Shown piece after piece: positions 59,042-63,266 of a DNA stretch of 64,000 bases (its first letter is position 1; each line of letters starts with the position of its first letter). The notes below the pieces were generated by a model. That model was given only the letters and a program-made list of their open reading frames with translations. It had not been told where the DNA came from and did not search any database. Both the position numbers and the translations under genes were made by a program. The DNA is from Halogeometricum sp. S3BR5-2 (GTDB taxonomy: Archaea; Halobacteriota; Halobacteria; Halobacteriales; Haloferacaceae), in contig NZ_JAMQOQ010000009.1 of assembly GCF_031624635.1 (NCBI RefSeq), positions 1 to 64,000 of the forward strand. Direction: 5' to 3'.

Positions 59042-61981
59042 CTACTGAACGGTCGGAGCGGATTCCAAGCCAGAAACAGCCTTCACGATATCAGTCAGGG
59101 CGTCCCGTGAGAGGGGGTCGATCTCTTCGCGAACGCCGTCGACTGTATAGAGAATCGATGCCGAAATCTCACGCTCAGGATACAGCTCCCGAAGTACGTG
59201 ATAGTAGACACTGAGTTGTTTTCGGTACTCGGCTTCCGCGTGCCGACCACGGTCGGTCTTGTAGTCGACCACTTCGATGCGGTCGGCTCGAACGTGAACG
59301 AGATCGATAATCCCGGAGATCATCACGCGAGTCCCGTCGACGTCCAGCGGAAGGTAGGCGTCCTCCTCGACGAGCAGGTCGCCCGACAGGCCATCGAGAA
59401 ACGACATCACGTGCTGTTTGTCGTCCCATCCGGGGTCATCCCGATTCAGTTCTACATCATCGCCGCGCGCGTACGCTTCCGCAAAATCGTGGACGTCGGT
59501 GCCGAACGCCTTCCCCATACCATCGTCGACGTCCTCGAAAACGTCCTCACGCATCAGTGAATGCGGTGAGTGTCCGACCGGTCCCTCCGGTGTCGGTACC
59601 GTAATCAGCAACTCTGTCTGCTCGGTGTCGTCGACGGTGTCTGCATCGGGTTCAGTGTCCCACGCTTCGATTTCAACCGGGAGTTCTTCGAGGAACGTGT
59701 TTGGGTCCTCCCCGGCCGAGAAGATCACGTGGCTCTCGGCGCGCGTAATTGCCACGTAGAGCAGTCGGCGCTCCTCGTCGTACTCCCTGGGTAAACACCG
59801 GCGGAGGACGTCAGTCCGCCAGTCATCGTATACGTGAGGAAGGCCGTCAGCCTCGGCGTAGCGTTTCCGCTGTCGGAGTCCGACCGGATCCTGAAACGTA
59901 ATCGTTCCACTCCCGCCGCCCGACGGCGGGAATCGCCCACTGTTCATGTTGGCGAGCACGACGATAGGATGTTCGAGCCCCTTCGCTGCGTGAATCGTCT
60001 GGACCGTCACTGAGTTTGCACCGGCGTTCGCATGAACATCGTGGGTACTGCCCGCTTCGATGCCGCGCTGGATGAACCGGATAAGGTCTCCCCGAGTCAG
60101 TGTCGTCGCGGTGTGCACTGACTGAATCGTGTGGAGAACGACGTCGGCCGTAGCACCGTCGTACCCGTAACGCGAGAAGACGCGTTCGGCCACCCCGCCG
60201 AGCGTCTCCAGTTCTGCCAGCTTCTCGCGGAACGAGCTCATGTTCTCGGGATACGCCTCAGTCTCCAGGACGTGCTTGATCTCATCGAGTGCGTAGCCTG
60301 CTTGCTCGAGGACGACCGCCCAGCCGCGGTCGGTGTCGGATTCGAGGATGCGGAGCCACGCTAGCAGTAACTTCGCCTGAGGCGTGCGGAACAGCTCGAT
60401 CCCGCCCTCGTACGCCATCGGCAGTCCGTACTCCTCGGCGGTCTGCAGCAGGTCGCGGCCGAACTCTCGTGTTCGCGTGAGAACTGCGACGTCTCGATAC
60501 TCGGGCGTCCGAAGCGACCCGTCATCGGCCTCAACCTGGTAGGCATCGTTGCCGACGATATCCTGAATCTTCGCGACCACCGACTCGTGTTCCTCTGGGC
60601 TCGCGATCGCTTCGATCTGGGTGTTCTCGTGTTCGGTGTTGGTCGAGAGTGAGACGATTCGATCCTGGATGGCCTCGACATCGACGTTGTCCCGGTTCGC
60701 CGCCGGAACGAGTAGCCCGTGCTCCGAGAAGTCGAGGATCTCCTGGGTGGAGCGGTAGTTCTCGATAAGCTCGATGGTGTGAATGGGACGGGTGTCGAAG
60801 GTGACCCGTTCGTGGTCGGCGTTCAGTTCGTCGACGAACCGATTGAGTCGGTCCTCGAAGGCAGTGATGTTCTCGACTTCGGCGTACTGGAAGCCGTAGA
60901 TGCTCTGCTTCCAGTCACCGACGACACAGAGGTTGTTTGTCCCCGCGAGCAGCAGCGTCAGCTTGAACTGAATCTCGCTGGAGTCCTGGAACTCGTCAAC
61001 CATCGCGTAGTCGAACGCAATGGATTCACGAAGCGCGTGGTCCTCACAGAGCAGGATGAACGCGAACAATTGGAGGAACCCGAAGTTGAGGTAGTTCCGG
61101 CCGAGCGCGAATTCGAGGTACTCGTAGAAGACGTCGTGGACGAATGCCTTGAGTCCCTCGCGGTCAGCGTCGAATACCATCCGAGCGACGGCATCGGGGA
61201 CGCGCTTCGTGCCCTGCCCGCGAATATCGGCCTTCTCAGGGGCGTTTGGCAGGTAGCACTTGTTCTTCCCATAGCGATTGAGCTTCGATCGAAGCTGTGA
61301 CTGCTTGCTCCCGCCATTCTGTGGCTCATTTACCTCATCGAACAGCGATTTGAACGCCTCAAAGTTGCCGTCGAGATACCGTTCGCCGTTCCGATACCAG
61401 CCGTCGGCTGTCGGGAACACACCCTTCGAGGCGAGTTGTGAGACGAGTCCGAGGAGTTCCGTCGGGTTCGAGACGATGCGGAAGTAGTCATCGTACTCGG
61501 GGTGGTCGTCGCTGAACCGGTCGATGAACTCTCCGAACAGGGCTTCCTCGACGAGGTCGTCTTCGACGATGCGCGTCGAGCCCGTGATGCGGTCGTCGAT
61601 CCCGAGGTGCGTCGGCGCGGCATAGCCGTGCTCCTGGAGGAGATCGTGGCAGAGCGAGTGGAACGTCTGAATCGGCGCGTCCGCGAGATCGCGCATTCCG
61701 TACTCGCAGTGGCCGACGATCCGGTCCTTCATCTCGGTTGCAGCGTTGTTCGTGAACGTCACCAGCAGCACGTCCTCAGGGGCGACATCGTCCTCGTCGA
61801 CGATGTTCGCATAGCGGCGCGTGATGGTGAACGTCTTCCCCGTGCCTGCGCCGGCGTCAACGAGGTATAAGCCGTCGGTGCTGTCGATGAGGTCCTGCTG
61901 TTGAGGGTTGGGATCATTGACATCCTCCACCCGCCTAGAAGCGGGGGAATCCTCGCGCTCGGAATTTGGCATTAGCGCCAC
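59042..61981 (-). CDS. UvrD/AddA-like helicase-nuclease
   Basis: About 960 residues of a UvrD/Rep superfamily 1A helicase. Walker A: VDAGAGTGKTFTITRRYA (residues 40-57). Motif II region AMVDEFQDSSEIQFKLTLLL, motif III CVVGDWKQSIYGFQYA, motif V VQTIHAAKGLEHPIVVLANM, motif VI DEERRLLYVAITRAESHVIF. The last 120 residues form a RecB/AddA-type nuclease domain with ISGIIDLVHVRADRIEVVDY and KTDRGRH (DYK). The first 22 codons, including the ATG, are read from the right end of a TnpB-type transposon; native homologues begin at about PNPQQQDLI. Role: DNA end processing or defence. Confidence 0.85.
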   Translation of the reverse strand: MALMPNSEREDSPASRRVEDVNDPNPQQQDLIDSTDGLYLVDAGAGTGKTFTITRRYANIVDEDDVAPEDVLLVTFTNNAATEMKDRIVGHCEYGMRDLADAPIQTFHSLCHDLLQEHGYAAPTHLGIDDRITGSTRIVEDDLVEEALFGEFIDRFSDDHPEYDDYFRIVSNPTELLGLVSQLASKGVFPTADGWYRNGERYLDGNFEAFKSLFDEVNEPQNGGSKQSQLRSKLNRYGKNKCYLPNAPEKADIRGQGTKRVPDAVARMVFDADREGLKAFVHDVFYEYLEFALGRNYLNFGFLQLFAFILLCEDHALRESIAFDYAMVDEFQDSSEIQFKLTLLLAGTNNLCVVGDWKQSIYGFQYAEVENITAFEDRLNRFVDELNADHERVTFDTRPIHTIELIENYRSTQEILDFSEHGLLVPAANRDNVDVEAIQDRIVSLSTNTEHENTQIEAIASPEEHESVVAKIQDIVGNDAYQVEADDGSLRTPEYRDVAVLTRTREFGRDLLQTAEEYGLPMAYEGGIELFRTPQAKLLLAWLRILESDTDRGWAVVLEQAGYALDEIKHVLETEAYPENMSSFREKLAELETLGGVAERVFSRYGYDGATADVVLHTIQSVHTATTLTRGDLIRFIQRGIEAGSTHDVHANAGANSVTVQTIHAAKGLEHPIVVLANMNSGRFPPSGGGSGTITFQDPVGLRQRKRYAEADGLPHVYDDWRTDVLRRCLPREYDEERRLLYVAITRAESHVIFSAGEDPNTFLEELPVEIEAWDTEPDADTVDDTEQTELLITVPTPEGPVGHSPHSLMREDVFEDVDDGMGKAFGTDVHDFAEAYARGDDVELNRDDPGWDDKQHVMSFLDGLSGDLLVEEDAYLPLDVDGTRVMISGIIDLVHVRADRIEVVDYKTDRGRHAEAEYRKQLSVYYHVLRELYPEREISASILYTVDGVREEIDPLSRDALTDIVKAVSGLESAPTVQ
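61930..61945 (-). ncRNA. Right-end hairpin, likely 3' part of the TnpB guide RNA
   Basis: Perfect five-base stem CCCGC/GCGGG with loop CTAGAA. In TnpB elements the right-end stem-loop closes the omega RNA scaffold, and the guide is the sequence just outside the element: here the first bases of the helicase gene. RNA production is inferred from the family. Confidence 0.4.
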
Positions 61982-62003
61982 CTCCGACGCGAGCGACTTT
62001 CTC

Positions 62004-63266
62004 CTATCCGTGGATACTCTGGTCTGTGCGCACTTCTTTGGGACTTTCGTGAGGGTATGATTTCCCCGACCATTCGTGGTCGTCCCACTCGAATCGCACG
62101 GGCCGTGCCATCGGCCTCGTTACGTTTGTTTGCCGTCTCAGGAACGATTCTGAGGCTACGAGATCGGCGTGGCCTTCGAACCCACATGAACACGTGAGTG
62201 TGTCCTGATGCCGAATCGTATCCGTAATCGAACCACAATTCGGGCACGTCTGAGTTGTCCACGCTTCCGACCGAACTTTGACTGAGATACCGTACTCCTC
62301 GGCGGTACAGGCCAGTCGATCGATGAACGCGCGGAACGCCCAGAAGTTGTGCGTCTTTGCGTTCGTCCGTACCGACCAGTGCGTTTCCAGCACGTCCGTG
62401 AGATCGCCGACGAACACCGTCGATACACCGTCGTTGTACAGACGTTCTACCAAGTCGCGCACTAGTGCGTTCTGTGCATGGTCGCGACGTCTCGTCCGTT
62501 GCCGGAACAGCTGCCGAATTCGATTCGAAGAGTATCGACCGTCGCGCAGCTTCGATTGCAAGCGAGCGATTTCCCGAGTGGTGTCGCGAAATCGCTCGAA
62601 CAGGTCGCGCCCTTCGTACAGATACTGCTGGCCAGTTGTGGTCGTGCAGGCGACGAGGTTGTTCGCACCAATATCCAGGGCGGCTTCTTCTGAAGCCAGT
62701 GGTGAATCCAGTCGAGAATCTTCCGCGGTGACTGGTTGAAAGGCCCTGAATTGGTCCGAAGTCTCGTCGTAGAACAGTTCCAACCGACCTTGTTCGCCAT
62801 CCCACTTCGGATCGCCCGCCACCTCGAGTCGAAGGCGCTCGGTGTACCCGAGGCCGTACTCCTCCTTGAGTTCCTCCCCGACCGGGATTTCGAGGCGCGA
62901 GCGGTCGCCGGTTTCCAGCGTGTACTGGTCGTTTCGGATGCATGTTTGCAAGGTGCGACCGTCGTCTTCGTTGCCCCAGTAGCCGGGTGGGGAACACTGC
63001 TTGCCCTTCTCTTTGAGCGAGAAGAACGATTTCCACGCGCTCTTGCTCTTGCGGATAAGCTGTTGGGCGGTGGCAGACCCGAGTACGCCGACGTACTGTT
63101 TGCGATAGTCGTCGGTGTCCCAGACGCTTTTGCCCTCGAAGTAGTTCTGGCGGCGTTCGTATGTGAGTTCGTTCCAGAGACTGGCAGAGGCGTCCAACAG
63201 ATCGTGTAGCAACTCCGCATCCTGTTCGGAGCGGGGTCGGACGACGAACGTATTGGTCCGCCTCAT
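62004..63266 (-). CDS. tnpB: TnpB RNA-guided endonuclease homologue (IS1341-type)
   Basis: A 420-residue TnpB, related to Cas12. RuvC motifs: [17 protein letters not shown] (first Asp, about residue 207), [20 protein letters not shown] (second, Glu/Asp region) and [17 protein letters not shown] (last Asp). The zinc finger is [17 protein letters not shown] then TCSCGFEG. N-terminal wedge/OB region is present ([20 protein letters not shown]). No frameshift, so it may be active. There is no TnpA, so transposition needs another element. Confidence 0.87.

Follow-up and report, generated by a model that had tools for sequence, protein, structure and literature searches.

The first 64,000 nucleotides of contig NZ_JAMQOQ010000009.1 of Halogeometricum sp. 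S3BR5-2 (the window) harbour a TnpB transposon which is inserted at the very start of a gene for an AddA-like helicase, directly behind an AddB-like gene. A sequence-only reading of the window had claimed that the right end of this element supplies the start codon and the first codons of the helicase with the frame kept. The locus comprises the following features:

59042..61972, minus strand: AddA-like helicase gene, UvrD domains and C-terminal PD-(D/E)XK, 976 aa from the ATG at 61972
63515..64000 (63515-66100 on the contig, C9), minus strand: AddB-like PD-(D/E)XK gene, of which the 3' part lies in the window
61917..63520, minus strand: TnpB element of the IS200/IS605 family, IS1341-type (tnpB only), 1,604 bp
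63521..63525, minus strand: transposon-adjacent motif (TAM) ATGAC, including the native helicase start codon (63523-63525; native starts as in L006/L007)
63515..63517, minus strand: TAA in the left end of the element, terminating the AddB-like gene one residue past its native last residue
63486..63501, minus strand: left-end subterminal hairpin CCCAC..GTGGG, from sequence, fold and alignment with other left ends
62004..63266, minus strand: tnpB, 420 aa (Pfam OrfB_IS605 and Cas12f1-like_TNB; NF040570)

The ends of the element were set by the empty sites L006 and L007, found in the genomes G001 and G010 respectively, by the right end shared among relatives and by the left-end family. Both empty alleles lack exactly 61917..63520, agree with the window on both flanks (480 bases on the left and 916 on the right in the comparison) and reveal no target duplication. 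In the window, ATGAC and TGATCCC lie 1,604 bp apart, which places the insertion point (ATGAC|TGATCCC) five bases into the helicase gene. The right end GAGGATGTCAA is identical base for base in the element's relatives. In most of the relatives examined the left end follows TGAC, often ATGAC, and (A)TGAC was therefore adopted as the TAM. The element combines a TnpB protein (152 bits against NF040570, cut-off 100) with a fixed short motif on its 5' side, no target duplication and subterminal hairpins at both ends, as is characteristic of the IS1341-type. While the right end does lie in the helicase frame as claimed, the true extent of the element is wider than the sequence-only reading had drawn it.

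The uninterrupted gene pair of G001 overlaps by eight bases (CTT GAC C ATG AC TGA), the TGA ending the AddB-like gene and the ATG starting the helicase. An uninterrupted pair with a 95% identical helicase and the eight-base overlap annotated likewise is present on the plasmid NZ_CP100450.1 of Halomarina sp. BCD28. The native helicase begins with MTDPNPQQQ in G001 and with MTETDPNPQQQ in G010. In the window, the native ATG persists at 63523-63525 but is separated from its gene by the element and now reads ATG ACA CAT AAC into the transposon. No stop interrupts the helicase frame between the right end and PNPQQQDLI. The element contributes 18 codons and the first two bases of the next, counted from the ATG at 61972 (not about 22 codons, as first proposed), adding MPNSEREDSPASRRVEDV and leading to the predicted N-terminus MPNSEREDSPASRRVEDVNDPNPQQQ; this frame also contains a GTG at 61981. 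3' of the junction, no ATG, GTG or TTG recurs in frame until a GTG at a distance of 49 codons, past the Walker A motif, so that only a start within the element can yield an intact helicase. The element-derived start and the kept frame are thus borne out by the open frame and by the empty sites in G001 and G010, the relatives in which the gene was checked for absence of the element. Two observations had been named as speaking against such an origin, namely that the N-terminal residues are native or that a separate promoter and a native start just downstream are used. The former does not apply as the residues are absent from both empty-site relatives; as to the start in the latter, no in-frame ATG, GTG or TTG occurs within 48 codons downstream of the junction.

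The preservation of the frame is only part of the matter. Since the host start codon lies within the TAM, which as ATG|AC leaves two bases of the second codon on the left, the host frame meets the right end in one fixed phase, which makes the kept frame look unlike a one-off accident. Translated onwards from the displaced native start codon, this arrangement contains an uninterrupted frame across the whole transposon, which we propose to be a relay:

61972..63525, minus strand: proposed relay frame, beginning at the native start codon and closed by a TAA after 517 codons, crossing tnpB in its +2 frame
61970..61974, minus strand: TAATG, the relay stop overlapping the helicase ATG by 1 nt
61979..61985, minus strand: GGAGGTG, Shine-Dalgarno-like, 6 nt before the ATG (GGGGGTG in the closest relatives)

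The TAATG thus displays one of the two stop-start overlaps, 1 or 4 nt, by which a coupled gene pair is recognised. GGAGG also occurs in the elements L135 and L138, and L167 has GGAGGGTG; the Shine-Dalgarno motif is possibly an adaptation that followed the insertion.

To place the window copy in context, elements of its group were collected across haloarchaeal genomes; these are related sequences, not independent ones. The first set consisted of 124 loci and the window, of which 14 lacked a right end at the expected place and 111 were kept. Left ends, recognised by a profile built from 19 of the same elements, were located in 55 of the 111, one of them without a readable TAM; the remainder comprised 42 TGAC-type TAMs (39 TGAC, 2 TGAT, 1 TGGC), 10 TTAC and 2 others. 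A later set of 40 loci, 8 without right end and 13 without left end, contributed 16 further TGAC-type elements (13 TGAC, 3 TGAT), giving 58 in total. The control set comprised 23 loci of relatives without a right-end start; a right end was missing from one of them and a left end from eight of the others. Since L300, L301 and L302 in this set are repeat readings of the elements of L049, L066 and L053, its 21 TnpBs correspond to 18 distinct elements, one being a 46-codon piece. The profile did not detect the element of Salinigranum rubrum (the same as L048), which was included through its annotation only. An exact-pattern scan of the genome contigs returned six matches, all in unrelated bacteria and judged to be due to chance. 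A related right-end group finishes in GATGTCAT instead of GATGTCAA (L205, L213, L215, L218, L219, L241, L274, L275, L277, L281 and L283) and was excluded from the counts.

Among the 41 distinct right ends of the 42 TGAC-type elements of the first set, the phase-matched frame is open over 75 nt in 36, compared to 14 and 11 for the other two frames. Likewise, an ATG or GTG 50-70 nt from the end is in phase in 32 of the 41, while the other frames offer one in 2 and 6 cases. Elements with a TTAC TAM have no ATG or GTG at this distance in that frame (0/10), though it is open in 8/10. Taking both sets together, 63 of the 136 distinct right ends possess a recognised loop codon (ATG, GTG or CTG; loop motifs chosen by the analyst after inspecting them). 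It is located at -56, -59 or -62, and hence in phase, in 55 of these (49 ATG/GTG, 6 CTG) and out of phase in 8. Public annotation contains such starts as well: a PIN-domain gene begins 59 nt before the right end in Halorhabdus tiamatea pHTIA, a DNA primase gene 56 nt before it in Salinigranum rubrum and, in three Haladaptatus plasmids sharing the same insertion with an open relay, a hypothetical protein at 56 nt.

The relay frame is strongly depleted in stop codons within tnpB. Stops expected by chance were obtained by permuting synonymous codons within the gene, by which the protein and its codon usage are preserved. For the window tnpB, 13.1 stops were expected in the relay frame versus none present, and none of 1,000 permutations reached zero. 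Summed over 27 TnpBs of the group, the relay frame contains 30 stops versus 292.6 expected (ratio 0.10) and the +1 frame 160 versus 232.7 (0.69), while the antisense frames, with 194/194.0, 267/269.4 and 278/258.1 stops, yield ratios of 1.00, 0.99 and 1.08. At fourfold degenerate sites, T amounts to 1.4% before a codon starting with GA, AA or AG compared to 14.9% elsewhere. Controls for the +2 frame consisted of 28 AddA-like genes including that of the window (771 stops versus 903.5 expected), 118 flank open reading frames (ORFs), i.e. the longest open frames in the flanks and not annotated genes (977 versus 1,310.4), five TnpBs of TTAC elements (68 versus 87.6) and the 21 TnpBs of the control set (152 versus 262.3). 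A milder general depletion of 0.58-0.85 is hence the background, and the value of 0.10 lies beyond it. No relay was present in any of the 14 control rows having a left end.

An intact relay is found in 19 of the 58 TGAC-type elements, its stop overlapping the right-end start as TAATG, ATGA or GTGA. The other two phases are closed early, one by a TGA in the TAM itself in 57 of the 58 elements (all but L126), the other by a stop within three codons in 43 of the 58. In the 28 elements whose distance between TAM and tnpB could be measured, the TAM is in relay phase to tnpB in 18, while the other phases account for 6 and 4 (p=0.0008). Short derivatives of 368-437 bp which keep both ends recur at many sites (L142, L167, L187, L192, L193, L195, L197, L198 and L269), and 10 of the 15 TGAC-type elements below 700 bp, too short for tnpB, retain an intact relay.

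The relay is linked to the position of the insertion relative to host genes. A codon-score classifier, run alike on insertion sites and on background TGAC sites, called host gene starts at 8 of 39 TGAC insertions of the first set versus 69 of 2,043 background sites (odds ratio 7.4, p=6e-5), the window insertion being among the eight. For ATGAC alone, 6 of 15 insertions compared to 42 of 421 background sites were called starts (p=0.003). Over both sets, the relay is intact in 8 of 10 called start insertions versus 11 of 48 others (p=0.0011, Fisher, post hoc) and, with the window excluded, in 7 of 9 versus 11 of 48 (p=0.003). A curated count gives 9 of 9 versus 10 of 49; it drops L140 and L270 and adds L126 by judgement that was not blind, L126 having a TGGC TAM and no Pfam family and not being called a start by the classifier. 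Pfam, run on ten flank frames, gave an ABC ATPase, class I lysyl-tRNA synthetase, molybdopterin oxidoreductase, carbon-nitrogen hydrolase, ferritin-like protein, DUF424, rhodanese (L140, whose native start is possibly further in) and a kinase ATPase domain (L160), with nothing for L126 and nothing above cut-off for L270. The strongest case of a start-codon insertion is lysS of G245, where a 419-bp derivative resides between ATGAC and TGACGACCC, and where the empty sites of G217 and G231 (L286, L290) show neither gap nor duplication. The class I search in G245, which did not extend to class II LysRS, yielded one full-length lysS and a second, weak hit about 100 residues long.

Taken together, we consider it probable that the element provides a translational relay, a property of its subfamily, which makes insertions into start codons tolerable to the host. 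Ribosomes would start at the displaced native start codon, traverse the element on the relay frame, terminate at the TAATG and re-initiate there to yield a helicase with 18 foreign N-terminal codons, the relay peptide being a by-product. The transposon would in this way act as an extra cistron inserted into a host operon. From architecture, phase, openness and stop depletion, which can be read from the DNA directly, we infer translation, re-initiation and, as the selective reason, tolerance by the host. The arrangement would be shared by a haloarchaeal TnpB subfamily and the small derivatives of it that lack tnpB, elements with a TAM able to fall on the start of a gene. Overlapping gene pairs of Haloferax volcanii are translated by termination-reinitiation (PMC6728339), which operates over short overlaps or very short distances, mostly overlaps of 4 or 1 nt, and is nearly abolished by gaps of about 20 nt (PMC10666635). 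Shine-Dalgarno motifs are described as unused for de novo starts at 5'-untranslated regions (PMC3986360) while aiding re-initiation in some Haloferax pairs (PMC6728339). On account of this re-initiation at overlaps and of the GGAGGTG in front of the junction ATG, ribosomes coming from the native ATG could cross the element and restart in the helicase.

Coupling of the helicase to translation of tnpB itself was considered as the main route and rejected. The tnpB stop is located 31 nt upstream of the new ATG, and such coupling is doubtful in view of the near abolition by gaps of about 20 nt described for Haloferax (PMC10666635). The relay frame from the native start to the new ATG is the better-supported route.

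A simpler explanation holds that the right-end ATG is just a de novo start, the helicase being expressed from a tnpB or addB transcript with the relay irrelevant. The GGAGGTG 6 nt before the ATG at 61972 would suit such a start, and annotation pipelines do pick the right-end start in relatives. Yet, neither the ten-fold depletion of stops in the +2 frame nor the link of an intact relay to start-codon position is explained in this way, and we therefore regard this possibility as unlikely. The strong and frame-specific depletion might alternatively point to a functional protein that is read from the +2 frame across tnpB and whose stop falls at the right-end start only incidentally. The amino-acid identity of the relay frame among group members, however, is no higher than that of the +1 frame (0.559 versus 0.562), fourfold sites are 59% identical, and the peptide, for which Pfam yielded no match, has an isoelectric point of 11.8 compared to 4.5 for the helicase. 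As the relay also persists in the elements too short for tnpB mentioned above, a functional +2 protein appears very improbable; what is kept seems to be the openness of the frame, which is not evidently that of a protein. That the insertion silenced a now decaying helicase, with the in-frame ATG a coincidence, is suggested by the distance of 1.6 kb between native start and gene but deserves slightly less credence still, given an intact ORF, 34 synonymous versus 7 amino-acid changes on the branch of the window genome (G000; these may predate the insertion) and the same architecture before lysS.

Several observations weigh against the proposed relay. Most TGAC-type elements (39 of 58) lack an intact one. 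L140 and L270, both doubtful, are called start insertions without relay, as is L299 from the control set; in L133 a PIN-like gene follows ATGAT out of phase with the relay broken, and in L160, which has another right-end type and no left end found, an in-phase stop occurs at -20 before the kinase-domain gene. In Salinigranum rubrum (L316, NZ_CP026313.1 2803-4344), the TAM ATGAC holds an ATGA overlap with the upstream gene and the element precedes the DNA primase gene. Its relay is open nearly throughout; a base is missing from the G-run of the right-end hairpin, which puts the stop 41 nt past the start, either a true exception or a sequencing slip. The later set taken alone does not reach significance (TGAC 2/13, p=0.07; ATGAC 2/4, p=0.055). 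The Fisher tests are post hoc because the relay pattern was noticed with both sets already in hand, and more generally the start-codon and relay associations are partly post hoc and drawn from elements which are not independent. Third-position variability is highest in the -56 class of right ends, not in the -59 class, so a coding signature in the right end itself is only suggestive. The inclusion of GTGA overlaps is our extension, the literature passages naming ATGA and TGATG. Moreover, with tnpB competing, translation on the relay would have to be sustained over 517 codons, and the intact state of the host genes may be due to recent insertion. The substitution counts of the helicase do not date it: besides the G000 branch, that of G001 carries 20 synonymous and 3 amino-acid changes, with 8 codons of three states excluded from the counts.

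The end of the element which forms the stop-start junction also contains the presumed guide RNA:

61917..62008, minus strand: 3' part of the presumed omega RNA, two stem-loops at the right end of the element (consensus structure, covariance model R1)
61901..61916, minus strand: first flank bases that would form the omega RNA guide, by analogy with known TnpB systems

The two stem-loops are conserved, as judged from a consensus structure of 24 sequences in which 7 of 25 pairs are changed on both sides. Folded alone, the window copy is not unusual (z -1.31), and this RNA gave no match in Rfam. In TnpB systems the guide lies in the flank next to the right end. The flank here adjoins the right end and the empty allele offers an ATGAC TAM, in keeping with the earlier proposal that the guide would target the uninterrupted helicase allele; the alleles of the relatives are imperfect targets, with one mismatch at guide position 4 in G001 and extra bases after the TAM in G010. 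As the segment translated in the relay is the same as the presumed omega RNA, translation and guide formation should compete.

The window TnpB carries a glycine where the aligned Cas12f-type chain has the RuvC-II glutamate. A TnpB inactivated specifically in the window by this exchange was considered and discarded, the glycine being widespread among related elements: in 43 related proteins, the last matched motif reads GDL in 36 and EDL in one. TldR repressors, nuclease-dead TnpBs, are recognised by a loss of RuvC catalytic residues particular to a domesticated lineage, and a glycine this widespread neither places the window TnpB among them nor sets it apart from them. Relocated RuvC-II residues have been reported for TnpBs; we looked for one in the window TnpB and found none. 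While the omega RNA structure appears conserved, RNA-guided cleavage by the window TnpB is putative, and the RuvC-II glycine gives no verdict on it. On balance we lean towards a self-bridging TnpB subfamily, in which the TAM captures host starts, the captured phase is free of stops even through tnpB, the guide-RNA hairpin doubles as stop-start junction, the other phases are usually stopped by TAM or left end, and guide-RNA formation and host translation would compete for one RNA.

Concerning the host genes, the helicase displays both the N- and the C-terminal UvrD domain (Pfam) and follows the AddB-like gene. As in AddAB, a UvrD helicase with C-terminal nuclease stands beside a second PD-(D/E)XK protein; unlike AddAB, the window helicase remains far below the NCBIfam AddA cut-off (177 versus 708 bits), so that, with domains present and equivalog cut-offs missed, it is AddA-like only.

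Elsewhere in the window, positions 57005-58169 comprise a nucleotidyltransferase gene (NTP_transf_2, MarR-like N-terminus) adjoining the gene for a 164-aa protein without Pfam match, a pair which we take to resemble MNT-HEPN, and a tyrosine recombinase (phage integrase family) is encoded at 54906-56030. Shortly beyond the right edge of the window on contig C9 (L088, 6284-7552), the opposite strand carries another, distant TnpB-like gene, which likewise reads GDL at the RuvC-II position. In L042 and L043, the reverse strand between left end and tnpB resembles, by eye, a short gene for a ribbon-helix-helix-like protein.

Compared to known systems, the element would share with IStrons, in which a group I intron is combined with an IS200/IS605 or IS607 element (PMC4227781), that a TnpB-bearing transposon leaves the interrupted host gene usable. 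In IStrons self-splicing at the RNA level restores the native product, whereas here the native sequence is altered, the proposed route is translational, and a group I intron was not found (Rfam search of 61500-64000, up to E=1). With other haloarchaeal IS1341-type elements possessing sotRNA/omega RNA it has in common a 3' structured RNA overlapping the end of tnpB in the same orientation; the end-to-end open frame and the stop-start junction are unmentioned in the available portions of the two papers (PMC8303175, PMC12558985). The 1-nt and 4-nt overlaps are those of operon genes in Haloferax, except that the upstream cistron would here be a transposon-spanning frame without evident protein function. 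No such relay was described among the papers listed by the literature searches, which covered titles and abstract openings and lay largely outside subscription journals and preprint servers. The element hence belongs to a known family while, to our knowledge, the proposed bridging is new.

In public genomes, right-end codons are annotated as N-termini of host proteins. If the relay is real, the omega RNA may come into conflict with the mRNA of the host. The relay would then help to explain the persistence of TnpB elements at gene starts, even before an apparently single class I tRNA-synthetase gene, and would add to introns and inteins a further means by which mobile DNA can occupy a gene non-destructively.

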